IMG/VR virus record: IMGVR_UViG_3300032087_003055
Location: 1-22,329 of that record
Direction: 5' to 3' (one strand)
Length of the DNA stretch: 22,329 bases
From: a virus
Shown: positions 3-22,287 of the stretch, piece by piece
How the letters are laid out: the number at the start of each line of letters is the position of its first letter
How positions within the stretch are numbered: position 1 is the stretch's first letter
Notes under the pieces: generated by a model
The model's database searches: none
The model's input: only the letters and a program-made list of their open reading frames with translations
What the model was told of the DNA's origin: nothing
Program-made: the position numbers and the translations under genes

Positions 3-536
3 GTTACTGGTGTTGGGTATCCGCAACTATCGACGGTTATCGAGTGCGCTGATGCCGCTCATGGGCTTGGCGGTCATGTTGTTGCTGACGGGGGTTGCAC
101 TTCTCCGGGAGATGTAGCAAAGGCATTCGCAGCAGGTGCAGACTTTGTAATGCTTGGCGGTATGCTGGCAGGGCATGATGAAGGTGGTGGTGAACCAGTC
201 TACAAATATATCCATAACAATGAGTACTACTACATGAAGGAAGACGAAATCTATAAACCAAAGATTGAGCGTAAAGAGTTCCGACAGTTCTATGGTATGT
301 CTTCTGATACAGCGAATCAAAAACATGCTGGTGGATTAAAAGGTTATCGTGCCTCTGAAGGACGGGATATCCTTGTTCCATACCGTGGTCCTGTAGCGAA
401 TACTGTTCAGTATATTCTTGGGGGTCTACGGAGCACATGCACCTATGTTGGCGCTCGACAACTCAAAGACCTTACTAAGTGTGCAACTTTTGTTCGTGTA
501 AACAATCAATATAATCGAGTATATGAAAATGCTTAA
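3..536 (+). CDS. guaC: GMP reductase, C-terminal part (cut by window edge)
   Basis: GMP reductase converts GMP to IMP with NADPH and would serve purine salvage during phage growth. The visible 177 codons read in frame from base 3 and carry family motifs: TGVGYPQL at the left edge, a [14 protein letters not shown] block, [25 protein letters not shown], then GPV and [13 protein letters not shown] near the end. The catalytic loop cysteine lies just upstream of TGVGYPQ and so falls outside the window. Compared with E. coli GuaC as I remember it, there is an insertion of roughly 19 residues, rich in Tyr and Lys, between the GHDEGGGE and FYGMSS segments. The stop overlaps the start of the heme oxygenase gene by 14 bases, so the two are probably cotranslated. 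IMP dehydrogenase is the alternative, but the C-terminal motifs fit GuaC better. Confidence 0.93.
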
Positions 537-5102: not shown

Positions 5103-5311
5103 TGAATATGACATTTATACAATACCTAAACTACCGGAGCGAGTATGAACGGCTCGTCTCCGGTTTTATTTTACCAGAAGACATGTATCACGGAACTATA
5201 GATAGTATGCAGTGGTTTCTTGAAAAGGGGCATACTGCAAATAGATTTCGTAAAGGGTTTGATGATGCAACTGAACTTTGTCATCATGTTTTGAAGGAAA
5301 TGAAAAAATGA
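5102..5311 (+). CDS. Small phage protein, 69 aa
   Basis: Function unknown. It is an aromatic-rich small protein starting MNMTFIQYLNYRSEYERLV. A downstream segment, RFRKGFDDATELCHHVLKEM, resembles an amphipathic helix. There are no diagnostic motifs. GTG 5099 and ATG 5108 are alternative starts. The ATG overlaps the preceding TGA, and its own stop overlaps the ATG of the dehydrogenase gene (ATGA), so it is translationally linked to the sugar cassette. Confidence 0.6.
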   Translation: MNMTFIQYLNYRSEYERLVSGFILPEDMYHGTIDSMQWFLEKGHTANRFRKGFDDATELCHHVLKEMKK

Positions 5312-6090
5312 AGATTTGTGTAGTTGGATATGGATATGTCGGCAAAGCAATGGTTGCCGCATTCGATCAGGGCGAGAATATTGATTATGATATTGTAGAC
5401 CCTGCTTATGAAGAATATAATAATTCTCTGCTTGAGGTTATGGAGTCTTGTGATGCTGCTGTAGTCTGTGTTCCGACACCGCAAGGAGAAGACGGTAAAT
5501 GCGATGATTCTACGGTTCTTGATGTTGTAGAGAGTATTGGTCTTGATAAACCTATTCTGATTAAATCCACTACAGACATCGACACACTTCAATGGTTTAA
5601 AGAAAATTATCCTAATGTCTGTTTTTCCCCCGAGTTTCTGCGTGGACGTAGTTCTGTAGAAGATTTCCTTGCTGAAACTAAAATGATTATTGGTGGCGAG
5701 ATCGATCAGGCAGAGGGTTGGATGAATGTGTTTCAAGAATGCTTAGATATTAAAGATGAAGCATTCCTTGACATTGTCGAAGCAGGTTATGTCAAGTATG
5801 CATGTAATTCTTTTTTGGCAACAAAAGTGACGTTCTTTAACGATTTGTTTAATCTAATGCAAAAAGCGCATCCAGAACTTGATTATGATTCTATGGTTTA
5901 TGCTCTGGGTCTAGACTCTCGTATCGGACATTCTCATACTGAAGTTCCGGGGTATGATGGTAAGTTTGGTTGGGGCGGCCATTGTTTCCCTAAAGATACG
6001 GCAGCGTTTGTACATTTTGCAGAACGACAGGATACTGACCTTCCCCTTATTCGAAAGGCAAGGGAACTGAATAAAATTCAAAGGAAGTAA
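5308..6090 (+). CDS. Short UDP-glucose/GDP-mannose dehydrogenase family protein
   Basis: Nucleotide-sugar 6-dehydrogenases oxidise UDP-glucose to UDP-glucuronate (or GDP-mannose to GDP-mannuronate) with two NAD. Here 260 residues carry the Rossmann start CVVGYGYVGKAM, CVPTP at 54-58, the FSPEFLRGRS segment near 106-115, the central-domain Lys163 and Asn167, and the catalytic Cys226 in WGGHCFPKDT. Most family members have about 390-450 residues, so the C-terminal UDP-binding domain is missing although the stop is clean. Either this is a compact phage form or the substrate differs. The start ATG 5308 has an AAGGA Shine-Dalgarno. The adjacent epimerase suggests the product is UDP-glucuronate. 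Confidence 0.85.
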   Translation: MKICVVGYGYVGKAMVAAFDQGENIDYDIVDPAYEEYNNSLLEVMESCDAAVVCVPTPQGEDGKCDDSTVLDVVESIGLDKPILIKSTTDIDTLQWFKENYPNVCFSPEFLRGRSSVEDFLAETKMIIGGEIDQAEGWMNVFQECLDIKDEAFLDIVEAGYVKYACNSFLATKVTFFNDLFNLMQKAHPELDYDSMVYALGLDSRIGHSHTEVPGYDGKFGWGGHCFPKDTAAFVHFAERQDTDLPLIRKARELNKIQRK

Positions 6091-6091
6091 G

Positions 6092-7024
6092 ATGAAAGTT
6101 TTTATCACGGGCATTGCTGGATTCATTGGATACCATACTGCCCTTCGGTATAAGGAAGAAGGTTGGGAAGTATCAGGTATTGATAACTTTAATGACTATT
6201 ATGATCCTCAGCTAAAACGCATGAGACAAGACCGTCTCATGGATCAAAGGATCGATGTTAAGGATATGGATATTCGTTCAGATGAACTTCCCCATACCCT
6301 TGATGATATTCAACCTGATCTTGTTATTCATCTAGCAGCTTCTGCTGGTGTGCGATACTCTATGGATAATGCGATTGAATATATTGATAACAACATTCAT
6401 GGCACTCAGTGTGTTATTAATGCCTGTGAAAAAGTAAATGTTAAAGATGTAATTTATGCTTCTACTTCTTGTGTGATGCACGATAACCCTCTGCCTTGGA
6501 ATGAGGATGAAAAACTCGGACCACAACTAAGTCCATATGGATATTCCAAAGCAACCAATGAACATCAGTTCAACATCTCAAAAATTCCGAATGCAGTCTG
6601 CCTACGGTTCTTTACCGTCTATGGTCCTTGGGGTCGCCCAGACATGGCATTGTTTACATTTACAAAGCAGATGCTTGCAGACGAAACTATCACTGTTTAT
6701 AATAATGGTGATATGAAGCGGGACTTTACATATATTGATGATATTGTGCAGGGAATCTATCTTGTTTCTCAGAATATGAAACCTAGAGATACCTACTGCT
6801 TAGGTAATGGTACACAGGTTCCTTTGATGGAATTTATTACAGAGATTGAACGCAACTTAGGTAATGGAGAATCCAAGAAAGATTTTCAACCACGACATCC
6901 AGCAGATGCAAAAGAAACTTGGTCAGATACAACAAAGATTCAACAATTGGGTTACTCTGCAAAGACTCCTATCAATGTAGGAGTAAAGAACTTTATTGAT
7001 TGGTATATGGAGTATTATAATTGA
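6092..7024 (+). CDS. NAD-dependent epimerase, UDP-glucuronate 4-epimerase-like
   Basis: A 310-residue extended short-chain dehydrogenase. The NAD-binding GxxGxxG is GIAGFIG at 7-13, the catalytic serine region is STSCV at 124-128, and the YxxxK pair is Tyr149 and Lys153. The motifs GIDNFNDYYDPQLKR, LRFFTVYGPWGRPDMALF and RDFTYIDDIV are typical of UDP-glucuronate 4-epimerases, which make UDP-galacturonate. It follows the dehydrogenase by one base with an AAGGAAG Shine-Dalgarno, giving a two-step route UDP-glucose to UDP-glucuronate to UDP-galacturonate. UDP-glucose 4-epimerase or dTDP-glucose dehydratase are less likely alternatives. Confidence 0.87.
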   Translation: MKVFITGIAGFIGYHTALRYKEEGWEVSGIDNFNDYYDPQLKRMRQDRLMDQRIDVKDMDIRSDELPHTLDDIQPDLVIHLAASAGVRYSMDNAIEYIDNNIHGTQCVINACEKVNVKDVIYASTSCVMHDNPLPWNEDEKLGPQLSPYGYSKATNEHQFNISKIPNAVCLRFFTVYGPWGRPDMALFTFTKQMLADETITVYNNGDMKRDFTYIDDIVQGIYLVSQNMKPRDTYCLGNGTQVPLMEFITEIERNLGNGESKKDFQPRHPADAKETWSDTTKIQQLGYSAKTPINVGVKNFIDWYMEYYN

Positions 7025-7797
7025 AACGTCTCATCTATCAGGTTTCTGTAGGCAAACCATCTAAACTCTACAAGCATTGTATTAACTCAGTTTCAGAGTA
7101 TTGTGATAAGCATGATATTGAACATTATGTTTTGACTAAACCTAAACTGCGTATCAATCCAAATGTGTTTACGTCTAATCGGTCAGAAGGTGCTTCTCGT
7201 TTAGGTTATCTACCTATCTTTGAAAAAGAGAATGCTTTTGACCTTCTACCAGAGTATGACCAGATTGCTGTTGTAGATTCTGACATTTACATTAGACCAG
7301 ATTCTCCTAACATCTTTGAAGACTTTGGTACTGATCATCCGTTTGGTGCAGTTTGTGAACGTGAGATGGCAATCAATCAAAAATATGCACAGAAGATTCA
7401 AAACTATTCTCGTATGCAGTATCAACCTTTGCATGGTAAAAAGGGGTTAGACTTTAAACCAAATAATCTAGGATACGAGTTTTTCAATATGGGTCTGATG
7501 TTGATGAACCAGTCTTTCTATGATTATATCAATATGCCAGCAAAGGAGTGGGTTACTCAAAATGAATTTCAGCCATTTGTAGACGGTATTGGTACATGGA
7601 AGTGGTCTACAGACCAGACACTGTTAAACTACTTTATGAAATCTCGTAAGGTTCCTGTGAAACATATGCACTGGAAGTGGAATGGTTTATACAGCGCCAA
7701 TAAGAAAATTAGTGAATGTCATTTTGTTCATTTCTTTTTGAAAGACTTGCTACCAGAACGTGGTGAAAATGTGGAACAGTTGATGGAGCAAATCTAA
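7021..7797 (+). CDS. Glycosyltransferase, GT-A type (DxD)
   Basis: A 258-residue putative glycosyltransferase. It opens with KRLIYQVSVGKPSKLY, then has a VVDSDIY segment with a DxD-type metal motif at Asp86-Asp88, and later a FFNMGLMLMN region and FVDGIGTWKWSTDQTLLNYF. This is typical of nucleotide-sugar GT-A transferases. The N-terminus is related in pattern to the genes at 8801, 10328 and 11600. The start is an unusual TTG that overlaps the epimerase TGA. A GGAG Shine-Dalgarno 8 bases upstream supports it. Donor and acceptor cannot be told. Confidence 0.75.
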   Translation: MKRLIYQVSVGKPSKLYKHCINSVSEYCDKHDIEHYVLTKPKLRINPNVFTSNRSEGASRLGYLPIFEKENAFDLLPEYDQIAVVDSDIYIRPDSPNIFEDFGTDHPFGAVCEREMAINQKYAQKIQNYSRMQYQPLHGKKGLDFKPNNLGYEFFNMGLMLMNQSFYDYINMPAKEWVTQNEFQPFVDGIGTWKWSTDQTLLNYFMKSRKVPVKHMHWKWNGLYSANKKISECHFVHFFLKDLLPERGENVEQLMEQI

Positions 7798-8801
7798 TGG
7801 ATATCTTGATTGTAGGGGCAGGATTTTCTGGTTCTGTTCTTGCACGTCAATTAGCTGATCTAGGGCATAACATAGTTGTAATAGATAAACGTAATCATAT
7901 TGCTGGTAATGCATGGGAATATACTAATGATAAAGGCATAAGAATTCATAAGTATGGTCCGCACATTTTTCATACTAAAAATAAAAGAGTCTATGATTGG
8001 ATTACACAGTTTGATGAATGGACTGAATACAAACATAAAGTGAAGGCTCAGTTGTCCGATGGGCGATATGTGACTATCCCTGTCAATAGAGAAACTAAAA
8101 GAATTGTTGGTGAAGAAAATATTGTAGATATCTTTTATAGACCCTATACGAAAAAGATGTGGGATAAAGATATTGAAGAACTTGATCCTAAAATTTTAAA
8201 TCGTGTAAAAGTCAGGGATGATGATAATGAGTATTATTTTCCAGACTGCGACTATCAAATAATGCCAATAAATGGGTATACTGCGGTAGTTGAAAAAATA
8301 TTAAATCATAAGAATATTAAAGTTAAGTTAAACACAACATACCAAAAACAACTAGAAAATGAGTATGACCATGTATTTAACTGTATGCCGATTGATGAGT
8401 ATTATGATTATAAGTTTGGTAGACTACCCTATAGATCAATTAAATTCCATCATGTAGATTTACCAATGAGTAAAGTCCTGCCTACATCAGTTGTCAATTT
8501 TACTCATGATGGTCCATATACAAGAATTACTGAATGGAAAAATTTTCCTAATCATGGAACAAATCCATCTTGTACTACAGTGACATATGAGGAGCCTTGT
8601 GACTATGTTGATAATAATTATGAAAGGTATTATCCAGTAAAAGATGTGGATGGAGAGAATAGAAAATTATATGAGAAATATAAGTCGATCCCTAATGAAA
8701 AAGTCACCTTTATAGGAAGGTGTGGAATGTATGTCTATATAGACATGGATCAAGCGATTAATGCATCTTTGATTTTGGCAGATAAATTTAAGGAGTTGTA
8801 A
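7797..8801 (+). CDS. glf: UDP-galactopyranose mutase
   Basis: This flavoenzyme converts UDP-galactopyranose to UDP-galactofuranose, the precursor of galactofuranose residues in surface glycans. The 334-residue protein has the FAD-binding VGAGFSG at 6-12, a DKRNHIAGNAW segment, HKYGPHIFHT at 51-60, PYTRITEWKNF with Arg243 at the position of the conserved substrate-binding arginine, and the end block FIGRCGMYVYIDMDQA. It is some 30-50 residues shorter than common bacterial enzymes. Arginine codons are mostly AGA, unlike the CGN-rich flanks. The start overlaps the upstream stop by one base (TAATG). Confidence 0.93.
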   Translation: MDILIVGAGFSGSVLARQLADLGHNIVVIDKRNHIAGNAWEYTNDKGIRIHKYGPHIFHTKNKRVYDWITQFDEWTEYKHKVKAQLSDGRYVTIPVNRETKRIVGEENIVDIFYRPYTKKMWDKDIEELDPKILNRVKVRDDDNEYYFPDCDYQIMPINGYTAVVEKILNHKNIKVKLNTTYQKQLENEYDHVFNCMPIDEYYDYKFGRLPYRSIKFHHVDLPMSKVLPTSVVNFTHDGPYTRITEWKNFPNHGTNPSCTTVTYEEPCDYVDNNYERYYPVKDVDGENRKLYEKYKSIPNEKVTFIGRCGMYVYIDMDQAINASLILADKFKEL

Positions 8802-9625
8802 TGAAAAATATCATTTATCAATATTGGAAAGGTCCACTCAAGCCCGGAGTTTTGTATAGCACTAAACTCATGAAAGAATATGCAGATAGAATTGGTGCTG
8901 AGTATAGATTTGATCATAATGTAACAATTGCAAGCAAAACTGTAGATGTTGATATCTACTATGAACCTGCTAATCCCTTAATTGATACATCTTTTGATGA
9001 ATATGATAATGTCGCCCTTGTTGATATTGATGTTTTTCCAGTAGAAGGACTTACCGAGAATCTGTTCGATCAATTAACTGATGAAGATGCTGGTATCTGT
9101 ACAGAACCGAAACAGCCCATTTACAGAGAATTATATAACGTCGCTGGAATCAACACTGCAAATGATAAAAAATGGGCAGCTGCCCTAAAGAAAAAATGGG
9201 GTGTTGAATATTCTTATGATAAAAAGAATAGGCCAATGGTTTATAATACAGGGGTCGTTGTCATTTCTAAAAAAGGTCTACAGAAAATTCGTGAAACATG
9301 GCCTTCTTTTCAAGATTATGTGAATGAAATGAGGAAACATAGTCTACCTAGATTTTATTCCTTTTTTCAAGATTACTTCTCCGCTTTCATTCATAAAAAT
9401 GATTTTAAGTTTAATCCGATGCATAATGGATGGAATTCGTACATGCATAAACTTGGATCAAAACCGACAGCTAGGGTAAATGATACCCGCACTAAAGAAA
9501 CAAAGTTGGTGCATATTATGTTTAGAACAGCAGATGATTGGCCAGAAGATGTGTTGTGGAGAGTTACTAATTCTTCAGAAGAAGAATGGGATCTACCTGT
9601 TCCGAATGGTTGGCCCAATGACTGA
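8801..9625 (+). CDS. Glycosyltransferase, GT-A type (DxD)
   Basis: A 274-residue protein beginning KNIIYQYWKGPLKPG. It carries a VDIDVF DxD site at Asp75-Asp77, a YNTGVVVISKKG segment and a late NGWNSYMHK region. These features fit a GT-A glycosyltransferase. It is part of the four-member family with 7021, 10328 and 11600, recognised by related N-terminal (I-Y/L-Q-x-W/Y-x-G) segments. It overlaps UDP-galactopyranose mutase by one base, so a galactofuranosyltransferase role is conceivable but unproven. AGA/AGG dominates the arginine codons. Confidence 0.72.
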   Translation: MKNIIYQYWKGPLKPGVLYSTKLMKEYADRIGAEYRFDHNVTIASKTVDVDIYYEPANPLIDTSFDEYDNVALVDIDVFPVEGLTENLFDQLTDEDAGICTEPKQPIYRELYNVAGINTANDKKWAAALKKKWGVEYSYDKKNRPMVYNTGVVVISKKGLQKIRETWPSFQDYVNEMRKHSLPRFYSFFQDYFSAFIHKNDFKFNPMHNGWNSYMHKLGSKPTARVNDTRTKETKLVHIMFRTADDWPEDVLWRVTNSSEEEWDLPVPNGWPND

Positions 9626-10328
9626 TTTTCCACATAAAATTATAAAAACACAATATGGTGACATAGTTGCTCCAATTGACAAAGGTTGGGATAATCCAAA
9701 TGGATTAGTTGATAATTATAAAAAACGGGGCATTTATGAACCTTCAACAATTAATTTCATAAAAGACAATATTGACAATAAATCTATGGTGCATTGTGGA
9801 GCAGCATTTGGAGATATGCTTCCTGCATTTAGTAAGTTTACAAATAAAACAATCTTTACATATGAACCCAATCCTTTAGCGGCTTGGTGTGCTAGAAAAA
9901 CTATTGAAATAAATGATCTGAAAAATGTAAACTTTACAGAAGTTGGATTGGGCGATAGAGAGGATGAAGTAGAGTTTATATATCAATATGAAGATGGCAG
10001 ATATCTAGCTGGTGGTTCTAGATTTGTTGATTCAAAAGTGCCTGACCATTGGGATGCATCAGTCAGATGGAAAAATGCAAAAACTGTAAAAATTCCTATT
10101 AAAAAATTAGATGATATCTTAACTGAAGAAATTGGTATTATTCATTTGGATGTAGAGGGGTATGAAACAAAAATTTTAGAAGGTGCGATTAATTTGATCA
10201 CTTCTTATAAACCCATTTTAATTTTAGAAAGAGTTGGTGCAGATGAAAGTGTAATGGAAGAAAAAATTATACCTCTAGGATATAAATTAATTAGCACTTT
10301 GGATGCTAACACTATTTGGAAAGTTTAA
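9618..10328 (+). CDS. FkbM-type SAM-dependent methyltransferase
   Basis: A 236-residue methyltransferase. Motif I VHCGAAFGDMLPAF lies at 58-71, the acidic residue Glu83 in TYEPNP ends beta-2, and a later block IGIIHLDVEGYETKILEGA is the classical FkbM signature. It most likely methylates a sugar hydroxyl in the glycan. ATG 9618 overlaps the previous gene by 8 bases; ATG 9606 is an alternative. The stop shares a base with the next gene's ATG. The cassette has a second FkbM gene at 12325. Confidence 0.87.
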   Translation: MTDFPHKIIKTQYGDIVAPIDKGWDNPNGLVDNYKKRGIYEPSTINFIKDNIDNKSMVHCGAAFGDMLPAFSKFTNKTIFTYEPNPLAAWCARKTIEINDLKNVNFTEVGLGDREDEVEFIYQYEDGRYLAGGSRFVDSKVPDHWDASVRWKNAKTVKIPIKKLDDILTEEIGIIHLDVEGYETKILEGAINLITSYKPILILERVGADESVMEEKIIPLGYKLISTLDANTIWKV

Positions 10329-11011
10329 TGATTAAAAATATAATCTTACAGCATTACAATGGTAAACCAAAAGAGTTAGAGAAATTATCTTTTGAGAATA
10401 TTTCAAACTATGCCGAATTAATAGGTGCAGACCACAAAGTTATTGGCGGTAAACCTTTCAATGAAAATTTAACTAACCCTTGCCAAAAGGTGCATTGTAT
10501 CAGTGAAGAGTGGGATGATTACGATAATGTACTCATGCTTGATCCAGATGTGTTTATTCGGAAAAATTTAACAGAAAATATTTTCAACGAACAGGGTAAT
10601 GGCATTCATGGCGATACTCAAAAAAGATTAAAGACTAGACTTATTCAGGCAGGTAGAATTGATAAGAATGCTCCATATTGGGCAGGTTCAATTTACAAAT
10701 TCAATAGGGAAGAAAGACAACAGTTAAGAAGTGTCATGCCAAAAAATGATGCATGGATGAAATTTTATAACAAAGCATACCATTTTGAAGATGAGGGTAT
10801 TCTTTCTGAGTTGGCGCATAAATGCGGAATGCCAATCAAGTATTTGGACTTTGTATGGAATCAGTGTAGTTTCTTACCTAATCCTGAATCTGCAAAAATG
10901 ATACATATGAGGACAAAGAAGTTTGGACATCTTAACGGCTCTTGGGAGAATGGTGGTAAACGAGATAAAATAGAAAATTATTACGAACTACTTTCAAAAG
11001 GAATTGTTTAA
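10328..11011 (+). CDS. Glycosyltransferase, GT-A type (DxD)
   Basis: A 227-residue glycosyltransferase relative. It opens MIKNIILQHYNGKPKE, has a LDPDVF DxD site at Asp72-Asp74, and a GSIYKFNREERQQLR segment. N-terminus and DxD position (72/74) are the same as in the gene at 11600, which shows paralogy. ATG 10328 is preferred because it overlaps the previous stop (TAATG); an upstream in-frame TTG at 10316 is less likely. Specificity is unknown. Confidence 0.72.
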   Translation: MIKNIILQHYNGKPKELEKLSFENISNYAELIGADHKVIGGKPFNENLTNPCQKVHCISEEWDDYDNVLMLDPDVFIRKNLTENIFNEQGNGIHGDTQKRLKTRLIQAGRIDKNAPYWAGSIYKFNREERQQLRSVMPKNDAWMKFYNKAYHFEDEGILSELAHKCGMPIKYLDFVWNQCSFLPNPESAKMIHMRTKKFGHLNGSWENGGKRDKIENYYELLSKGIV

Positions 11012-11610
11012 TGATTTTCCCCGAAGATAAAAAAGTCTTTATTCATATTCCTAAAACTGGTGGTAGCAGTATAGAATTACAACTTTTGAAAAAGATTGGT
11101 ATAAAATCTTCTGGTAATAGTGTGTGGGGTGGGATGTCTCATGAGAACAAAATTTCTTTTTTAGGTGAAAAATATAAATCATTCGTCTATGCACCACATG
11201 CAAAGGCATATGAATTAAAACAGCAATACCCCGAATTATATCAGAAATACGAATCTTCCGTAATTGTTCGAGACCCATATGATAGATTTTGCAGTATGTA
11301 TTTTTGGCATACAAAAAAGAAGGGCAATCCAGATCCATTAGATGTTCATAAGAAACTTATTGAAAATAAAGAATTGATGGTAGAACCTCAATATGACTAT
11401 ATCTATGAAAACAATATTTGTATCGTGGATAGAATTTTTAAGTTTGAGGAAATAAATAAAATCTTTGAGTATTTTAATGTGCAACCAAATCACGCTAAAA
11501 ATATGAAAAGGCAGAAAACAGAAGATTTTTATGACCAGTGGCCAAAAATGAAACAATTTGTAGCAAACTATTACTCTAAAGATTTTGAGGTATTTAACTA
11601 TGAAAAATAA
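11011..11610 (+). CDS. PAPS-type sulfotransferase
   Basis: A 199-residue member of the sulfotransferase family that moves a sulfonate from PAPS to a hydroxyl, usually on a glycan. The 5' phosphosulfate-binding loop IPKTGGSS lies at 13-20. The 3' phosphate-binding segment VRDPYDRFCSMYFW lies at 86-99, with Arg87 and Ser95 as the expected contacts. His63 in the APHAKA segment is a possible catalytic base. It sits between glycosyltransferases, so a sugar is the likely acceptor. PAPS must come from host sulfate assimilation, since no cysC or cysD is in this window. Confidence 0.86.
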   Translation: MIFPEDKKVFIHIPKTGGSSIELQLLKKIGIKSSGNSVWGGMSHENKISFLGEKYKSFVYAPHAKAYELKQQYPELYQKYESSVIVRDPYDRFCSMYFWHTKKKGNPDPLDVHKKLIENKELMVEPQYDYIYENNICIVDRIFKFEEINKIFEYFNVQPNHAKNMKRQKTEDFYDQWPKMKQFVANYYSKDFEVFNYEK

Positions 11611-12328
11611 CATAATTTTGCAGCATTGGAATGGTCCGCTACCTGAGTGGGCAAAAGTTGCAAAGAAGACAGTAGAGAAATATTGTGATCATATTGGATG
11701 CCAGTATCAACTTGTCACTGGCCACCCTTTAGGGGAAAAACTGGGACCAAACCCTCAAAAGTTGGTCTACATAACCGAAGAGTATGATCAGTATGACAAA
11801 GTTCTGATGTTAGATATGGATATGATTGCGACTAACAATTATAGAAATGCATTCGAGAGACCTGAGATTGGTGTTCTTCACGATAGAGCTATGAAGGGGA
11901 AATCCCGCACGCCTCCTTCTGCTCCTGATCTTTTTACTTTAGGTATGCCTATATTTTTTGGTAACTATATCATGACAACCAAAGACCAAAGGATTGCGAT
12001 GCGAGAACATGCTGATTGGGATTGGTTAGCAACAAAGTTGGTAGACAGTTATTGCGGCGACGAAATGCTTTTAGCATGGTTACTCAAAGAAGCTGATTTA
12101 CTGAAAGGTATGTCAATTAAAGAGATGTGTATGAGATGCGATGGCAATTCCTATGAAGATATATACTTTAGAAAAGAAACCCGCTGGGATAGAAAGTTCA
12201 CAAACTTAGCATTTGGTGGTGATGAAACTTGCTATGCGGACAAAGATGCTACTTTTCTCCATTTTGGGCAGAGTAGAAAACACTCTATTCCCGAGTATGC
12301 TAATAAAATATTTGGATTACTTTTATGA
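11600..12328 (+). CDS. Glycosyltransferase, GT-A type (DxD)
   Basis: A 242-residue glycosyltransferase relative beginning KNNIILQHWNGPLPEWAK. It has a LDMDMI DxD motif at Asp72-Asp74 and a late YADKDATFLHFGQSRKH segment that could be a substrate-binding loop. It is a paralogue of the 10328 gene. ATG 11600 has a GAGG Shine-Dalgarno 10 bases upstream, and the gene overlaps the sulfotransferase by 11 bases. Donor and acceptor are unknown. Confidence 0.74.
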   Translation: MKNNIILQHWNGPLPEWAKVAKKTVEKYCDHIGCQYQLVTGHPLGEKLGPNPQKLVYITEEYDQYDKVLMLDMDMIATNNYRNAFERPEIGVLHDRAMKGKSRTPPSAPDLFTLGMPIFFGNYIMTTKDQRIAMREHADWDWLATKLVDSYCGDEMLLAWLLKEADLLKGMSIKEMCMRCDGNSYEDIYFRKETRWDRKFTNLAFGGDETCYADKDATFLHFGQSRKHSIPEYANKIFGLLL

Positions 12329-12939
12329 AAATATCGAAACCTGAAACTGAAGGTTGGTTAGGAAAATATGTCCATAACACCTTTGAGAATTATCAGTTGA
12401 AAGAATATACCAAAGCGATTGAATCTGTAAAAAGTAAAAGAACAGCTATTGACTTAGGTGCAAATTTAGGTATAATGTCATATCGAATGTGTAATGACTT
12501 CCACCATGTGCACGCCTTTGAACCTTTGTTTTGTGATCATTTAAAAGAGAACGTGAAAAAAGATAACATTACTTTTTATCCATATGCTGTAGGTGAAAAA
12601 GAAAAAACTGTAACAATGAGAGTTGGGCAGTATCATTCTGGTGGTTCAAATGTTGTGGAGAACCCAAGTAGTAAATCGGAAAAATATGCTACAGAAGTTC
12701 GCTGTGTCACTATAGATTCTTTTAATATTCAAGATGTTGATTTTATTAAAATTGATGTGGAAGATTATGAATGGTATGCCCTTTTAGGATGCCAAGAAAC
12801 CATAAAAGAATATAAGCCAACCATTTTAATGGAATTGAAGCGTGATAACACCCATTATAAATCTATAAGAACCTTCATGAAAGAATTAGGGTATTCGAGT
12901 GAATATGTTGGTGAATTAGATTGCCTTTTTACGCAGTAA
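12325..12939 (+). CDS. FkbM-type SAM-dependent methyltransferase
   Basis: A second FkbM-family protein of 204 residues. Motif I is IDLGANLGI at 42-50, the acidic strand-end Glu66 lies in HAFEPL, and the signature block VDFIKIDVEDYEWYALLGC follows. It probably methylates a sugar position, perhaps a different one from the 9618 enzyme. It overlaps the upstream glycosyltransferase by 4 bases (ATGA). Arginine codons are mixed CGN and AGA, marking the right edge of the AGA-rich zone. Confidence 0.87.
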   Translation: MKISKPETEGWLGKYVHNTFENYQLKEYTKAIESVKSKRTAIDLGANLGIMSYRMCNDFHHVHAFEPLFCDHLKENVKKDNITFYPYAVGEKEKTVTMRVGQYHSGGSNVVENPSSKSEKYATEVRCVTIDSFNIQDVDFIKIDVEDYEWYALLGCQETIKEYKPTILMELKRDNTHYKSIRTFMKELGYSSEYVGELDCLFTQ

Positions 12940-12949
12940 GGATGATGAA

Positions 12950-13648
12950 ATGAAAGCCTTTGTAATCACATTATTTAATGACAAGTATAGTGTAGAGTCT
13001 GCAGAAAGATGTATCAAATCTGCTCGGCAGTTAGATGTAGATCAAGATCTTCATATCGAAATGATTCGTGCTGTAACTCCTGATAAAATCAAAGATAATA
13101 CATATTCATATCCAGCAGAAGGTGAAACGAGTACCTATGAAGGTATGACTCTTATTGGATATAAAGCAAAAGATGTAAGTAAAAAGATTGCCTGTTCGCT
13201 GTCTCATATGCATCTCTGGAATAAATGTGTAGAGATGGATGAACCAATTATGATTCTGGAGCATGATGCTATATTCACTCGTAGATTCAGACTCGGTAAA
13301 CTGCTAAAAGTGATGGAAGACGGTGATGTCGTGATGATTAACGATCCTCGTGGCGCTACTCGTAGAGGAAATCTCTATCATGATAATATTATTCGTTGGG
13401 ACACTGGCGTAAATATTATCGATGGTGTTAACAGTCCAGACGAAAATGTTCCAGACGGACTGGCAGGTAATAGTGCTTACATTATCACACCAGCAGCAGC
13501 AAAGAAAGCATATGAACTTCAGTCGACTATCGGTATCTGGCCAAATGATGCTCTGCTCTGCAAGCAGTTGTTCCCCAGAAAGTTAAAGTCCTACTACCCC
13601 TATATAACAAGAGTTGAACAAAGGAAATCTACGACTACAGGATACTAA
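12950..13648 (+). CDS. Glycosyltransferase family 25-like protein
   Basis: A 232-residue protein of the LPS-biosynthesis GT25 type. It opens MKAFVITLFNDKYSVESAERC, has a CSLSHMHLW segment (82-90), and an ILEHDAIF motif with Glu104-His-Asp106 as the metal/nucleotide site. The region NSAYIITPAAAKKAYE is also typical. GT25 members usually add galactose or related sugars to lipo-oligosaccharide. It is followed by a diverged tandem copy at 13653. An AAGG Shine-Dalgarno lies just upstream of ATG 12950. Confidence 0.85.
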   Translation: MKAFVITLFNDKYSVESAERCIKSARQLDVDQDLHIEMIRAVTPDKIKDNTYSYPAEGETSTYEGMTLIGYKAKDVSKKIACSLSHMHLWNKCVEMDEPIMILEHDAIFTRRFRLGKLLKVMEDGDVVMINDPRGATRRGNLYHDNIIRWDTGVNIIDGVNSPDENVPDGLAGNSAYIITPAAAKKAYELQSTIGIWPNDALLCKQLFPRKLKSYYPYITRVEQRKSTTTGY

Positions 13649-13652
13649 TATA

Positions 13653-14300
13653 ATGCAAGCGTATGTGATTACAATTATGGATGAACCAAGGTCTGTTCAG
13701 TCTGCTGAAAGATGTATCAAATCTGCAAAAAGGCATGGCGTGAATGTAGAGATGTGGCCTGCAATTACACCTAAAGATGATCCTGTAAAAATCTTTGAGC
13801 AAAAGAAACTTCCTACTCGTAGGTTCGAGAATAGTCCATACTCTAGATACGAAAACTGCCTTTCTGCGTTTCTGTCTCATAGAAGTCTCTGGGAAAAATG
13901 TCTTAATGACAAAAGAGAAACTTTGATTCTAGAGCATGATGCATACTTTATTGATAGTATCAAAATGCCATTGTTCTATAGTAAGGTTATTTCTCTAGGC
14001 AAACCCTCCTATGGTAACTACCGTAATCCTGCTCAGTTTGGTGAGAATCCATTAACTTCAAAAGCATACTTTCCCGGTGCGCATGCATATGTAATGTCAC
14101 CTGTAGGAGCAAAAGAAGCACTAAACAAGTCTTTGTCAGGTGCAATGCCTACAGATTTATTTTTCAATATCGAGTATTTTCCCGAGTTAATGGAACTGTA
14201 TCCATGGCCTGTAGAAGTCAGAGAGACCTTTACGACTATTCAGCAGGAAGAAGGTTGCTTGGCAAAACATATGTATAATGAGGAATATGAAATCGTATGA
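13653..14300 (+). CDS. Glycosyltransferase family 25-like protein, tandem paralogue
   Basis: A 215-residue GT25-type protein with the opening MQAYVITIMDEPRSVQSAERC, an AFLSHRSLW segment at 72-80 and ILEHDAYF with Glu94-His-Asp96. The N-terminus matches the preceding gene closely in protein, and 20 bases are identical in DNA (13004-13023 and 13707-13726). This is a tandem duplication with divergence. The paired enzymes may add two different or repeated sugars. ATG 13653 follows the previous stop by 4 bases. Confidence 0.85.
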   Translation: MQAYVITIMDEPRSVQSAERCIKSAKRHGVNVEMWPAITPKDDPVKIFEQKKLPTRRFENSPYSRYENCLSAFLSHRSLWEKCLNDKRETLILEHDAYFIDSIKMPLFYSKVISLGKPSYGNYRNPAQFGENPLTSKAYFPGAHAYVMSPVGAKEALNKSLSGAMPTDLFFNIEYFPELMELYPWPVEVRETFTTIQQEEGCLAKHMYNEEYEIV

Positions 14301-14995
14301 TTACTGTTGCGTGTGTATGCTGGGGTGATAAGTTCTCAGAAGATTATGTCTACAATCTGAAGTCTATGGTTGAACGTAATACAACTATACCTCACAAGTT
14401 TGTTGTATTTTCTGACCGTAAATGGGATGGTATTGAGACCCGTATTCTTAATCCCGGTCTAGAAGGTTGGTGGAACAAACTTCAGTTATTTGATACTGAC
14501 CATAAACTTGACACTAATCGTGTTGTATATCTTGACCTTGATACATTGATTGTAGATAATATTGATTGGTTGTTAGAATATGATGGTAACTTTATGGGTA
14601 TTGAAGACTTAGGTTCTATCAATAAACATCAAACATATCTTAAATCTAGATTACAGTCTGCTGTAATGTCATGGGACTATCAGTTAAATGGGCATATTTG
14701 GGAAAGGTTTATCTCTAGTAATGAAGCAGGAAGATTTAGAGGTGATGGTGAATACCTAAATCATATTATTCCAAAATACCAAAGAGACTTCGTCCAGAAA
14801 AAGTATAGAGGTAAATTGAAGTCATATAAGTATCAAGTATATTCTGAGGGCATTACAGACAATCTCTCTATTATCTGTTTTCATGGAAGACCTAGCATTC
14901 CACAAGCAATGACTGAAACAGTAGAGATTGGATGGAATGGAGTAGAGCGAAGAGTATTTGAACCTCAAGATTGGATTAAGGATTATTGGAGATAG
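14297..14995 (+). CDS. Glycosyltransferase, GT-A type (DxD)
   Basis: A 232-residue putative glycosyltransferase. It opens MITVACVCWGDKFSEDYV, has GLEGWWNKLQLF at 54-65, VVYLDLDTLIV with DxD at Asp80-Asp82, and a RPSIPQAM segment near 199-206. It differs from the 7021-family in its N-terminus. It overlaps the GT25 copy by 4 bases. The donor is unknown. It may build the backbone of the glycan. Confidence 0.76.
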   Translation: MITVACVCWGDKFSEDYVYNLKSMVERNTTIPHKFVVFSDRKWDGIETRILNPGLEGWWNKLQLFDTDHKLDTNRVVYLDLDTLIVDNIDWLLEYDGNFMGIEDLGSINKHQTYLKSRLQSAVMSWDYQLNGHIWERFISSNEAGRFRGDGEYLNHIIPKYQRDFVQKKYRGKLKSYKYQVYSEGITDNLSIICFHGRPSIPQAMTETVEIGWNGVERRVFEPQDWIKDYWR

Positions 14996-15001
14996 TTTAG
15001 T

Positions 15002-15616
15002 ATGGCTAAAGTGGCACATATTATTGGTAATGGTGATTCTTGTGTATGGTATAAACCTGCCAAGGGATTAAAGATTGTTTGTAATCTTCCGCCTATGGAA
15101 GTTCCGAATGTCTACGTTTCCTGTATGGTCGACTTCAAGATGATGAAAGCACTTACTGAGGGCGATTTTCAAAATCCTTATACATGGGTGCTTGGATATA
15201 GACCTAAAATCTGGATGCAAAAGAATTCTGGTTTCTATATGCAAAACTCTGCTAAGATTAAAGAGTTCTATACAGAACTTCCTCCATACGCAGGGAAGGG
15301 TGGTCAGGGATATACCAACTTTAACTGTGGGCATTTTGCTACACACTGGACAGCAAACAAGGTCGGTGCAGAGGAGATTCATATGTATGGATTTGATTCT
15401 ATCATGGACTTTGATATTCGTTCTAAAACTGACTTTCTTCTGCCCTCTGATAGAGGTTCGATGAACACTCAGAGATTATCTCATAAATGGAGAACAGTTT
15501 TCAAAGGTATCTTCGAAGAGTTCAAGGATACTCAATTCGTCATTCATCACAAGCACAACAATATCAAGTTTCCTAAACCTGACAATGTAGATATTGTCGT
15601 GCATAAAAATGGTTGA
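15002..15616 (+). CDS. Putative glycosyltransferase-like or DUF115-like protein
   Basis: A 204-residue protein of uncertain family. It starts with HIIGNGDSCVW, a glycine-rich IIxGNGxS motif, and later has GAEEIHMYGFDS. These two features recall DUF115/MptE-like proteins and family-42 sialyltransferases, but I am not sure. It is the last gene of the glycan cassette and ends with Lys-Asn-Gly-stop. The stop TGA is part of the TTGACT box of the next promoter. Function inferred only from context. Confidence 0.55.
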   Translation: MAKVAHIIGNGDSCVWYKPAKGLKIVCNLPPMEVPNVYVSCMVDFKMMKALTEGDFQNPYTWVLGYRPKIWMQKNSGFYMQNSAKIKEFYTELPPYAGKGGQGYTNFNCGHFATHWTANKVGAEEIHMYGFDSIMDFDIRSKTDFLLPSDRGSMNTQRLSHKWRTVFKGIFEEFKDTQFVIHHKHNNIKFPKPDNVDIVVHKNG

Positions 15617-18299: not shown

Positions 18300-18836
18300 A
18301 TGATTCGTTTGATTTCTACTCTTTTCGTTTCTGCTATCGTTACTGCTTCCATGTATGCTATTGTCACTGCCCCTAAGACGGAAGCACATGAACTTGATTG
18401 CAACCTCGTCAGCTTTGGCGAATACGACTATACGCATGTATCAACTAATCTGCCGACACGCAATAATAATCCCGGTAACATCCGCAAGACAAAGGTGACT
18501 TACTTTGGCGAGACAACTAATGAATCTGGGTTTGAGTCCTTCGCTGCTCCTGAATGGGGATATGCAGCTATGTTTGATCTTCTTGACCGCTTGTACACTG
18601 GACTCACTCTAAGCGAAGCAATCTACAAGTGGGCACCTCCGGTAGAGAACGACACTGAGAAGTATGTTCGGTTTGTTGCCAAGAAGACCGGATACGATCG
18701 TAATGAATACAAAGTAAATGTGAATGATGAAAGCATCATCGAGTTTGCCAAGTGGATGTCTGTTCTAGAAGGCATGAAAGGTTTCTCTGATGATGACGTG
18801 ACTATGGGCTATATGGTATGGGAGAAGTGCTACTAA
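18300..18836 (+). CDS. Exported NPGN-motif protein, possibly wall-acting
   Basis: A 178-residue protein with an N-terminal hydrophobic segment (residues 4-24, LISTLFVSAIVTASMYAIVT) that may be a signal peptide or a signal-anchor. The body holds RNNNPGNIRKT (54-64), FESFAAPEWGYAAMFDLLDRL and a WAPPVENDTEKYVRFVAKKTGY segment. Such NPGN..R...F.SF..PE.G...A proteins are frequent in phages and sometimes annotated as structural or lysozyme-like, so a cell-wall or lysis role is plausible. The catalytic residues are not evident to me. Start ATG 18300 has a modest TTAGG Shine-Dalgarno. Confidence 0.72.
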   Translation: MIRLISTLFVSAIVTASMYAIVTAPKTEAHELDCNLVSFGEYDYTHVSTNLPTRNNNPGNIRKTKVTYFGETTNESGFESFAAPEWGYAAMFDLLDRLYTGLTLSEAIYKWAPPVENDTEKYVRFVAKKTGYDRNEYKVNVNDESIIEFAKWMSVLEGMKGFSDDDVTMGYMVWEKCY

Positions 18837-19129
18837 TGACTAAGTGTAATGGTTGTGGTACTGAACTCGTTGATGGTGGAGTAGATTGGTACTGTCCTAA
18901 CAAAGAATGTTCCTATGAACGTGATGCAGCTAAAGCATGGTTGGCCGAATACAAAGAACAGAAAGAATATGAAAAGGCAAAGGAGATTATCCTTGCTCAT
19001 GAAGACCATGAAAATTTATCACGTTTAAAATTCTATTGTGTATATCGTATGATGGAGTTGATCGAAGATAAAGAAAGCGTAGTGACGAAAACCGTAATTT
19101 TTAAAAGAGAAGATCCGGATGTTGACTGA
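18836..19129 (+). CDS. Zinc-ribbon protein with coiled-coil-like tail, 97 aa
   Basis: The N-terminus CNGCG followed by WYCPNKEC gives two cysteine pairs (Cys-x2-Cys and Cys-x4-Cys), a typical zinc ribbon. The rest is charged and helical: KEYEKAKEIILAHEDHENLS. A GGAG Shine-Dalgarno lies 11 bases before ATG 18836, within the end of the upstream gene. Its C-terminal half resembles the next small gene. Function unknown; zinc ribbons in phages often bind nucleic acid or protein partners. Confidence 0.75.
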   Translation: MTKCNGCGTELVDGGVDWYCPNKECSYERDAAKAWLAEYKEQKEYEKAKEIILAHEDHENLSRLKFYCVYRMMELIEDKESVVTKTVIFKREDPDVD

Positions 19130-19280
19130 TTTTGAAATTAAACAGACTAATGATTATATTCGGGCGATGGAGATTATCCTACGTCATGAAAATATTGAGG
19201 AGCTGGAGAGTCTACAGCAGGATTGTAAGTATCGTATTAAAAAATTGAGGGAAGAGAATGAAACACAAGCGTTTATGTGA
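19119..19280 (+). CDS. Small protein, partial duplicate of the zinc-ribbon neighbour's tail
   Basis: A 53-residue helical protein, MLTDFEIKQTNDYIRAMEII at the start and a REENETQAFM end. It aligns with the C-terminal half of the preceding gene: NDYIRAMEIILRHE against KEYEKAKEIILAHE, then CKYRIKKL against CVYRMMEL. It has no zinc-ribbon cysteine pairs. It overlaps the preceding gene by 11 bases and the aldolase start by 23 bases in a different frame. This looks like a tandem duplication that kept only the helical half. Confidence 0.7.
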   Translation: MLTDFEIKQTNDYIRAMEIILRHENIEELESLQQDCKYRIKKLREENETQAFM

Positions 19281-20067
19281 ACCAGATTTCGGTAAAAAAG
19301 GTAACTACACTATCATCCTTCCTATTGATCAGGGAGTGGAGCATGGACCGCATTCAGCGTTCTTTGCTACTGATCATCCTGAGATGTTGGACGTAGATTA
19401 TCAGGTAGATTACATTGCCGAGTTGTTACAAGAGGGATTAGTAGGTGCTACGGCACTACCACAGCGCACTGCTAACCTATTGAAGTTTTGGTATCCGCAT
19501 TTGGCACAGGATATCATTATGAAATTAAATCATGGTAACAATTTAAATGACTGGATTGATCCGACTCAAGCAGTCTATGCAACTACAGCAGCTGCCCGAG
19601 AAATGGGTGGTGTTGGATATACGATCTATCCTGGTTCGATTGATCAAGACAAGATGATCAACTACTTTGGTAAGATTAAAACCCATGCCTCGCCAACATC
19701 AAAGACCATTCTCTGGTCGTATCCACGTGGTGGTGAATTTAATCCTATCTCGTTTGAAACCATAATGCATGCAGCATATATCGCTGCACAGTTGGAACCA
19801 GACGTAATCAAAGTTAAGCTTCCTGAGTATGATAGTATTGCAGACCTATGTATTCGTGTAGACCGTATCGTTAAAGCTGCTTGTGGTATCCCTGTGGTCT
19901 TCTCTGGTGGCTCTATGCGTAGAACTGATGGAATCCTGATGGAAGCAGAAGCAATTGCCAAGAATGGTGCGTACGGTATGATTGTAGGACGCAACGTATT
20001 CCAGCGTAAGCGTGATGAAGGTAAAAATCTATTGAGAGATATACACAAAGTGTTTAGGGAGAGTTAA
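19258..20067 (+). CDS. Class I fructose-bisphosphate aldolase, DhnA/FbaB-type
   Basis: A 269-residue aldolase that cleaves or forms fructose-1,6-bisphosphate through a Schiff-base lysine. Signatures: PIDQGVEHGP with Asp24 at 22-31, DVIKVKLPEYDS at 182-193 with Lys187 (or Lys185) as the probable Schiff-base lysine, VFSGGSM near 214-220 and IVGRNVFQR near 242-250 for phosphate binding. Length is that of the archaeal/bacterial DhnA type. ATG 19258 has a GAGGG Shine-Dalgarno. As a phage auxiliary metabolic gene it could redirect host carbon flow between glycolysis, gluconeogenesis and the pentose-phosphate pathway. Related DhnA enzymes make other products, so the exact substrate needs proof. Confidence 0.85.
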   Translation: MKHKRLCEPDFGKKGNYTIILPIDQGVEHGPHSAFFATDHPEMLDVDYQVDYIAELLQEGLVGATALPQRTANLLKFWYPHLAQDIIMKLNHGNNLNDWIDPTQAVYATTAAAREMGGVGYTIYPGSIDQDKMINYFGKIKTHASPTSKTILWSYPRGGEFNPISFETIMHAAYIAAQLEPDVIKVKLPEYDSIADLCIRVDRIVKAACGIPVVFSGGSMRRTDGILMEAEAIAKNGAYGMIVGRNVFQRKRDEGKNLLRDIHKVFRES

Positions 20068-20068
20068 A

Positions 20069-20458
20069 ATGAAAACACTCATAGCAATACTGTTTGCTTT
20101 GGTTCCTAGTGTTGCTATGAGTCAGGTGATCACCAAAGAATATATGATTATGGAATATAACGACATTGCCAGTTTAGCTGCTGCTGAAGTTCTTGGATGT
20201 GGTAAAATCAATAAAGAAAACGTAAAAAGATTTAACGAAATTTTTGATACCTTTATGCTTGACAAAGCTGAAGAAGAAGGTTATAGTGTTACGATAGAAG
20301 ATATTGAAGGATGGAAACTGGCAACACTAATTGAACAATATGATGCAATGAAAGGTATTCCATGTTCAGTTATCAATGAATCTATTGATGAGTTTAATGA
20401 AACAACTCGATATACTCGGGAAATATACGACTATTACACACCAGTAGGAGGGATATAA
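20069..20458 (+). CDS. Exported protein of unknown function, 129 aa
   Basis: A clear signal peptide: MKTLIAILFALVPSVAMS with likely cleavage before Gln19 (Ala-x-Ser|Gln). The mature part has two cysteines (in LGCGKI and IPCSVI) that may form a disulfide in the periplasm, and several helices rich in acidic residues. There is no recognised domain. It starts one base after the aldolase stop and ends just before the 20461 gene, so it is part of the same operon. Possible roles are envelope modification or superinfection exclusion, but that is inference. Confidence 0.72.
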   Translation: MKTLIAILFALVPSVAMSQVITKEYMIMEYNDIASLAAAEVLGCGKINKENVKRFNEIFDTFMLDKAEEEGYSVTIEDIEGWKLATLIEQYDAMKGIPCSVINESIDEFNETTRYTREIYDYYTPVGGI

Positions 20459-20460
20459 AT

Positions 20461-20643
20461 ATGGCCACACTGAAAAACAAACTGCGTAAGAAGCACTTTG
20501 ATACTCAATTCCGTATGAAAAAGAAGTTAGAAAGGCAAGCAGCTTATGACTTGGAATATGCTCAGTCTTATGACATTAACGAGATTCTTTCTGGTAATGA
20601 AGCATATCAAGAGTTTTTGAGCGAAAAGAATAATGGATATTGA
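20461..20643 (+). CDS. Small basic phage protein, 60 aa
   Basis: A basic, helix-rich 60-residue protein starting MATLKNKLRKKHFDTQFRMK. No known domain. A strong GGAGGG Shine-Dalgarno lies at 20447-20452 in the end of the preceding gene. Its TGA overlaps the ATG of the next gene by 11 bases. Basic N-terminus and small size suggest a nucleic-acid or host-protein binder, which cannot be shown. Confidence 0.65.
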   Translation: MATLKNKLRKKHFDTQFRMKKKLERQAAYDLEYAQSYDINEILSGNEAYQEFLSEKNNGY

Positions 20644-20863
20644 GAATAAAATTCTAACTAAAAAACGATTTTGTGATATGGTAGAAACTTATGTTTACAC
20701 CAAGAAAGAATCCTATCTGGATGCTATCACAGATATTATGACACAACATTCTATTGAACCAGAAAGGATTAGCAATCTAATAAATACATCGATCAAGGAT
20801 AAACTAGAAGCAGAAGCTCGTAATCTAAATTTCCTTGAGAGGATCAATACATTACCATTGTGA
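20633..20863 (+). CDS. 33: Late-transcription coactivator, gp33-like
   Basis: A 76-residue protein resembling the phage T4 gp33 family (Trans_coact) that bridges host RNA polymerase and the sliding clamp for late transcription. The typical string is seen as FCDMVETYVYTKKESYLDAI, then QHSIEPERISNLIN, KDKLEAEARNLNFLERI and a short C-terminal TLPL. The C-terminal hydrophobic tip would be the clamp-binding element. Its place a few hundred bases upstream of gp32 agrees with the T4 order 33-59-32, but no gp59 is present. Based on pattern memory, so not certain. Confidence 0.75.
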   Translation: MDIENKILTKKRFCDMVETYVYTKKESYLDAITDIMTQHSIEPERISNLINTSIKDKLEAEARNLNFLERINTLPL

Positions 20864-21378: not shown

Positions 21379-22287
21379 ATGTCTCTTGCAAATCTTAAAA
21401 AATCCCGTGGTTCTTCCATCGATAAACTTGTCAACGCAGCAGCAAAACTTAACGAATCTGCTGATGTTCGGAATGGTCCAGATGAACGTATCTGGAAACC
21501 TACTGTTGATAAGGCAGGTAACGGTTATGCTGTTATTCGTTTCCTGCCTGCACCGGAAGGTGAAGAACTTCCTTGGGTTCGTTACTGGGATCACGGTTTT
21601 AAAGGCAAGACTACAGGTATGTGGTATATTGAAAAATCACTTACCTCTATCGGGCAGAAAGACCCCGTAGGCGAATTAAACTCGCAGCTGTGGAATACTG
21701 GTCGAGATGAAGATAAACAGACTGCTCGGGAACAGAAGCGCCGTCTGCACTACGTCTCTAACATTTATATCGTTTCTGACTCAGGTAATCCTGAGAACGA
21801 AGGTAAGGTGTTCCTTTACCAGTACGGTAAAAAGATTCATGACAAACTGATGGAAGCGATGCAACCACAGTTTGAGGATGAAGACCCTATCAATCCATTC
21901 GATCTTTGGGAAGGTGCTGACTTCAAACTGAAGATTCGTAACGTTGGTGGTTGGCGTAACTACGATCGTTCTGAGTTTGCCGCACCTGGTGCACTGGCAG
22001 ATGATGAAGAGATGGAACGCGTCTACTCTCAAGCTTACCCACTCGGTGAGTTTACTGATCCAGCTACCTTCAAGTCCTATGAGGAACTCAAGGCTCGTAT
22101 GGATATGGTTCTGGGTAATGATATGTCAATGACTACTCAGCAACGTGAGGACCTGTCTATGACAGCTGAGTCAGCGCCAATGAAGACTGTTGAAGCCGTC
22201 TCAGCGGCGCCACAACAAGACACAGGCGGTTCTGACGATGATGACGACACCATGTCGTACTTCTCCAAGCTAGCTAACGAAGACTGA
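21379..22287 (+). CDS. 32: Single-stranded DNA-binding protein, gp32-like
   Basis: A 302-residue T4-type gp32, which coats single-stranded DNA during replication, recombination and repair. Visible: the N-terminal basic cooperativity region (MSLANLKKSRGSSIDKLV), a core with YAVIRFLPAPEG, YWDHGFKGKTTGMWYIEKSL and QLWNTGRDEDKQTAREQKRR, and the acidic C-terminus GGSDDDDDTMSYF that recruits partners. The T4 zinc ligands Cys77, Cys87 and Cys90 have no cysteine counterparts here (WYIEKSLTSIGQKDPVGEL), although the His in DHGF is kept, so the fold is zinc-independent. It has its own promoter and Shine-Dalgarno and a strong terminator. Confidence 0.93.
   Translation: MSLANLKKSRGSSIDKLVNAAAKLNESADVRNGPDERIWKPTVDKAGNGYAVIRFLPAPEGEELPWVRYWDHGFKGKTTGMWYIEKSLTSIGQKDPVGELNSQLWNTGRDEDKQTAREQKRRLHYVSNIYIVSDSGNPENEGKVFLYQYGKKIHDKLMEAMQPQFEDEDPINPFDLWEGADFKLKIRNVGGWRNYDRSEFAAPGALADDEEMERVYSQAYPLGEFTDPATFKSYEELKARMDMVLGNDMSMTTQQREDLSMTAESAPMKTVEAVSAAPQQDTGGSDDDDDTMSYFSKLANED

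Follow-up and report, generated by a model that had tools for sequence, protein, structure and literature searches.

The 22,329-nucleotide stretch of DNA analyzed here (positions 1 to 22,329 of IMG/VR virus record IMGVR_UViG_3300032087_003055; hereafter, the window) carries an intact open reading frame of 269 amino acids on its plus strand at 19258–20067, which starts with an ATG at 19258, and the stop codon of which ends at 20067. Six nucleotides 5′ of the start lies a GAGGG (19247–19251, plus strand) that, as read from the sequence, is likely the ribosome-binding site. A preliminary description had taken this gene to encode a class I DhnA-type aldolase on a phage contig, and our analysis confirms the gene as real and as first described, with its catalytic lysine intact and under purifying selection. 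The metabolic role suggested there (gluconeogenic or pentose-phosphate flow, or sugar precursors for the glycan cassette) is putative. Chance is excluded as an explanation, because 16 viral homologues keep both the reading frame and the catalytic residues, and because pairwise dN/dS values are 0.05–0.16 in the subclade to which the window belongs. Promoter and terminator signals near the gene were not above the shuffled expectation. We note also an unlisted 53-aa ORF, read by eye at 19119–19280, which overlaps the start of the aldolase gene, and the EIILRHENIEEL of which resembles the EIILAHEDHENL of the ORF at 18818–19129, as if the two were tandem copies.

Downstream, and likewise on the plus strand, follow the genes for a 129-aa protein (20069–20458), for a gp33-like late-transcription coactivator (20633–20863) and for a gp32-like ssDNA-binding protein (21379–22287), the latter two being conserved neighbors identified from Pfam, PHROG and the locus comparison. 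The sole T4-type late-promoter sequence in the window, TATAAATA at 20454 (plus strand), stands just 5′ of the ORF at 20461–20643 and of gp33. The aldolase gene adjoins this gp33–gp32 region and lies outside the sugar (glycan) cassette of the window, which spans ∼10 kb (5278–15616) and includes a UDP-sugar dehydrogenase, an epimerase, a UDP-galactopyranose mutase, GT8 and GT25 glycosyltransferases, FkbM methyltransferases and a sulfotransferase-like ORF. At the other end of the window (3–536), an ORF truncated by the first position of the window encodes the C-terminal portion of a protein resembling IMPDH/GMP reductase; its counterpart in the related contig L123 is 82% identical, and IMPDH-family genes occur in two long records as well.

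By both profile and fold, the 269-aa protein is a member of the DeoC/DhnA (PF01791) class I aldolase superfamily. The Pfam DeoC model matches it at 1.1e-21 and 78 bits, against a gathering cut-off of 23.8 bits, with positions 1–229 of the 229 in the profile covered. Its top PDB match by sequence is 1ojx, the class I fructose-1,6-bisphosphate (FBP) aldolase of Thermoproteus tenax (3e-24), an enzyme also retrieved at 7e-28 in a search with the viral profile. The AlphaFold model (pLDDT 90.5, pTM 0.90) is a complete DeoC/DhnA-type TIM barrel, with 2yce as its top Foldseek match (E 2e-18, TM 0.80), the T. tenax enzyme trapped with a Lys-bound carbinolamine. Of a collection of predicted viral proteins, the best match shares only 15% identity. 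Among the NCBIfam models, the highest score is obtained for the class I FBA model NF006704, at 137 bits relative to a cut-off of 277, and two further viral aldolases score 141 (L121) and 157 bits (L018) with the same model; the ADH synthase models NF005556 and TIGR01949 give 91 and 59 bits (cut-offs 241 and 299, respectively), and the LsrF model 30 bits. The viral aldolases hence stay under every curated NCBIfam cut-off and, reaching 137–157 of the 277 bits required, are relatives rather than members of the NF006704 equivalog.

The DQGVEHGP and VIKVK motifs named in the preliminary description are both present, beginning at residues 24 and 183, respectively. When aligned with the T. tenax enzyme, D24 (codon at 19327–19329, plus strand, as for all codons given here) corresponds to D24, the residues W153, Y155 and R157 of the WSYPR motif (19714–19728) to W144, Y146 and R148, and K185 (19810–19812), the first lysine of VIKVK, to the Schiff-base lysine K177. 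All five residues are invariant across 29 rows (16 viral and 13 cellular), such that the lysine, the loss of which from the alignment would have refuted the preliminary description by its own terms, is retained throughout. The second lysine of the motif, K187, was considered as the Schiff-base residue and ruled out, as many cellular relatives have Asn at this position and the T. tenax numbering points to K185. The phosphate loops, previously described as intact, are so: these are the SGG at residues 216–218 (19903–19911), a putative DHAP-phosphate loop, and the GRN at 244–246 (19987–19995), a putative second phosphate loop, roles which we take from family knowledge. G217, G218 and the entire GRN are invariant in the same 29 rows, and S216 is nearly so. 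Class I chemistry is well supported, and we predict from the sequence a working Schiff-base enzyme of the DhnA type.

The gene is carried by 28 other IMG/VR contigs (in one case, L025, as a partial match only), and the encoded proteins are 57–100% identical over the compared region. Among 50,697 catalogued phage records, in contrast, there are no close copies and only two gut contigs, at 25% identity, making the aldolase rare in catalogued phages, in agreement with the earlier impression that this type is less common. The usual gene order (DUF932, endolysin-like, aldolase, 129-aa protein, 60-aa ORF, gp33, ORF, gp32) is conserved in 24–26 of 27 contigs. As befits a phage auxiliary gene, the aldolase lies between viral genes, with gp33, gp32 and PhoH on the same contig and 24 loci showing the same order. 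Synonymous change greatly exceeds amino acid change, with the pairwise dN/dS values of 0.05–0.16 in the subclade of the window and of 0.25–0.41 in a second subclade (L016, L018, L020 and L021) both being below 1, and strongly so in the former. Residues following R157 are altered in two members of this second subclade (PRSLGY and PRGLGY in L020/L021), and these changes, together with the higher dN/dS, may reflect relaxed constraint, recombination or a shift in substrate. We also observe that all genes up to 21188 are protein-identical between the window and contig L107, yet gp32 is 87% identical, which is likely due to recombination between close strains beside gp32.

A constant partner of the aldolase gene is that for the 129-aa protein, which follows it directly in 26 of the 27 viral loci (with L123 as the sole exception), and is kept after it even in L121/L122, where the remaining order is lost. 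This protein has an apparent signal peptide, an all-helical predicted structure and two conserved cysteines, and gave no match in Pfam, PHROG or the phage records. It is possibly an exported partner of the aldolase, or else a superinfection factor.

The source of the window is an uncultured aquatic T4-like phage: gp32, gp33 and PhoH are found on the contig itself, and baseplate genes in related records. The gp32 of the window is closest to cyanophage gp32 (∼55% identical), while for gp6, a baseplate protein, from a related record the nearest match is Phage C48C1 (317 bits), followed by pelagiphage HTVC008M and cyanophages (∼200 bits); gp23, used as a lineage marker, gave no match in the search and none in the controls either. 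A heme oxygenase gene (523–1113) adjoins that of a ferredoxin-dependent bilin reductase of the PcyX type (1070–1765), with PcyX_EBK42635 as the top PDB match of the latter (2e-43) and with relatives in at least 160 IMG/VR stretches. By itself, this pair of genes would suggest a cyanophage with a cyanobacterial host, a reading with which the similarity of gp32 is compatible. This reading is weakened, however, by the type of the reductase, as phage PcyX groups with alphaproteobacterial PcyA in published trees (PMC10151467), and nonphotosynthetic proteobacteria have been put forward as the hosts of phages with hemO-pcyA/X cassettes (PMC11480375). It is further weakened by our finding no psbA in 15 related records; psbD, talC, zwf/G6PD and GlpX (FBPase) were likewise not found in these records, the longest of which is 96 kb and all of which are probably fragments, making these absences suggestive only. 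The host of the phage is uncertain. An aldolase standing in for talC in this lineage would be compatible with these data but, as the records are fragmentary, we make no such claim.

The best cellular matches are ∼30% identical to the viral aldolase. In samples drawn from cellular genomes, the phylum with Melainabacteria and cyanobacteria gave some match in 59 of the 291 genomes sampled, and the Pseudomonadota in 88 of 398, many of these matches being partial or weak. Phylogenetically, the viral aldolases, with identities of 58–98% among themselves, form one fully supported clade on a stem of ∼2 changes per column, which is sister to, and outside, the bacterial class I FBAs of a Pseudomonadota/Cyanobacteriota-phylum group (support 99/94). 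This tree includes the T. tenax and M. jannaschii rows and leaves out the long E. coli-type FbaB branch; an earlier tree with E. coli-type FbaB did not resolve the placement of the viral clade, long branches meeting there, and given its long stem the exact placement is uncertain. Two members of the bacterial sister group, L160 and L161, pass the NF006704 cut-off of 277 bits with 526 and 462 bits, respectively, and L161 is flanked by ORFs that by eye resemble efp and suhB, which would suit alphaproteobacteria. The comparison with host aldolases proposed in the preliminary description has thus yielded a deep viral clade, and both the depth of this clade and the ∼30% identity to any cellular relative rule out a recent transfer from a host. 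Rather, the aldolase is a long-standing, core-associated gene in one lineage of uncultured T4-like phages.

Taking these observations into account, we consider it probable that the protein is an FBP aldolase run in the gluconeogenic direction, to the benefit of nucleotide and sugar supply, although the substrate, direction, benefit and host are all points that we infer, unlike the fold, the active site, the purifying selection, the conserved position and the deep monophyly, which the data show. By homology to the T. tenax enzyme, the substrate DHAP would form an imine with K185, Y155 would serve proton transfer, and the phosphate would be held by the SGG and GRN loops, with the reversible conversion of DHAP and glyceraldehyde-3-phosphate to FBP as the most likely reaction. 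During infection, flow would be directed towards FBP, from which a host phosphatase would produce fructose-6-phosphate, and this could in turn feed the pentose-phosphate pathway and nucleotide supply, as well as provide nucleotide sugars for the sugar cassette. In line with an FBP aldolase are the Pfam, PDB and NCBIfam matches (with scores falling from NF006704 through NF005556 to LsrF), the fold match to the carbinolamine-trapped enzyme, the invariant catalytic residues, the low dN/dS in the subclade of the window, the conserved locus and the 99/94 placement in the tree beside a group that includes L160 and L161. Against it stand the 137 of 277 bits, the long stem and a length ∼40 aa below that of the bacterial relatives. 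Of the enzymes of this route that we looked for (FBPase GlpX, transaldolase and G6PD), none was found in the 15 related, mostly partial, records.

As the scores are well under all cut-offs and the viral stem is long, the substrate may have shifted, and the superfamily does include enzymes acting on other substrates, such as ADH synthase, YihT and LsrF. The protein would then be a DHAP-dependent, Schiff-base aldolase of the DhnA fold that joins DHAP to a different aldehyde, giving a sugar phosphate or a precursor of glycans or of a cofactor, an alternative to which we assign a smaller but real likelihood. The viral proteins are also ∼40 aa shorter than their bacterial relatives, and the extensive cassette of sugar-nucleotide and glycosyltransferase genes elsewhere in the window would suit such a role; nevertheless, FBP aldolases top every similarity search, W153-S-Y155-P-R157 is identical to the T. 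tenax motif, and the matches to ADH synthase, LsrF and YihT are clearly weaker in either sequence or fold. Going further, a virus-specific subfamily that parted from cellular enzymes long ago and has a new DHAP-dependent reaction, coupled to the small exported protein, is doubtful; instead of plain FBP turnover, such a reaction might, for example, provide a precursor of glycans whose synthesis the phage directs. Equally doubtful is operation in the catabolic direction, with FBP cleavage speeding glycolysis and ATP supply: the reaction is reversible and its direction is not fixed by sequence, but gluconeogenesis is a common setting for class I enzymes of the DhnA type, and a Pfam survey of two long records found no phosphofructokinase or other glycolytic gene. 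That the gene was recently acquired, is neutral and is being lost has no specific support, and is very improbable in light of the 28 other contigs, the conserved position, the low dN/dS in the subclade of the window and the single deep clade. Cellular contamination or a binning error is more improbable still, for while bacterial fbaB can occur in viromes (PMC3877843), gp32, gp33, PhoH and baseplate genes share the contig in many independent contigs.

If the protein is indeed a gluconeogenic FBP aldolase, it would provide a single-gene, assayable case of the steering of carbon by a phage. What is known of how phages control the carbon flow of their hosts comes mainly from the cyanophage genes talC, zwf, gnd and cp12, and here another, less studied T4-like lineage has long retained an enzyme where the triose and hexose routes branch. 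The novelty is modest, since class I FBA genes have already been reported in viromes, as fbaB (PMC3877843, PMC12713726) and as fba (PMC4053976). What is added here is a defined, deep and syntenic viral clade with an intact active site and a constant partner gene, giving annotators of viral metagenomes a defined clade and locus in place of scattered fbaB annotations.

Compared with known systems, one phage parallel is cyanophage talC, likewise a phage-borne TIM-barrel sugar-phosphate lyase/transferase acting around F6P and GAP, but belonging to the family PF00923 and not found in the 15 related records (probably fragments). The fba/fbaB genes of viromes are class I FBA-type viral metabolic genes as well, known there as annotations. 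E. coli FbaB shares superfamily and chemistry with the viral aldolase, yet has ∼350 aa and sits on a separate, distant branch. Nearer are the bacterial class I FBAs of NF006704 (PRK09250.1-1; Pseudomonadota and Cyanobacteriota phylum), which provide the best curated model and the sister group in the tree; the NF006704-type L160 and L161 share the VKVK and WSYPRG motifs with the viral aldolase, which differs from these enzymes in being without ∼20 N-terminal residues and the loop after the lysine strand. Finally, the T. tenax class I FBP aldolase (1ojx, 1w8s, 2yce), an archaeal DhnA-type enzyme, differs in its DHG, which is DQG in the viral protein, and in an identity of only ∼28%, but corresponds to the viral aldolase in fold and length (263 vs 269 aa), in D24, in the W/Y/R triad, in the Schiff-base lysine and in the SGG and GRN loops.
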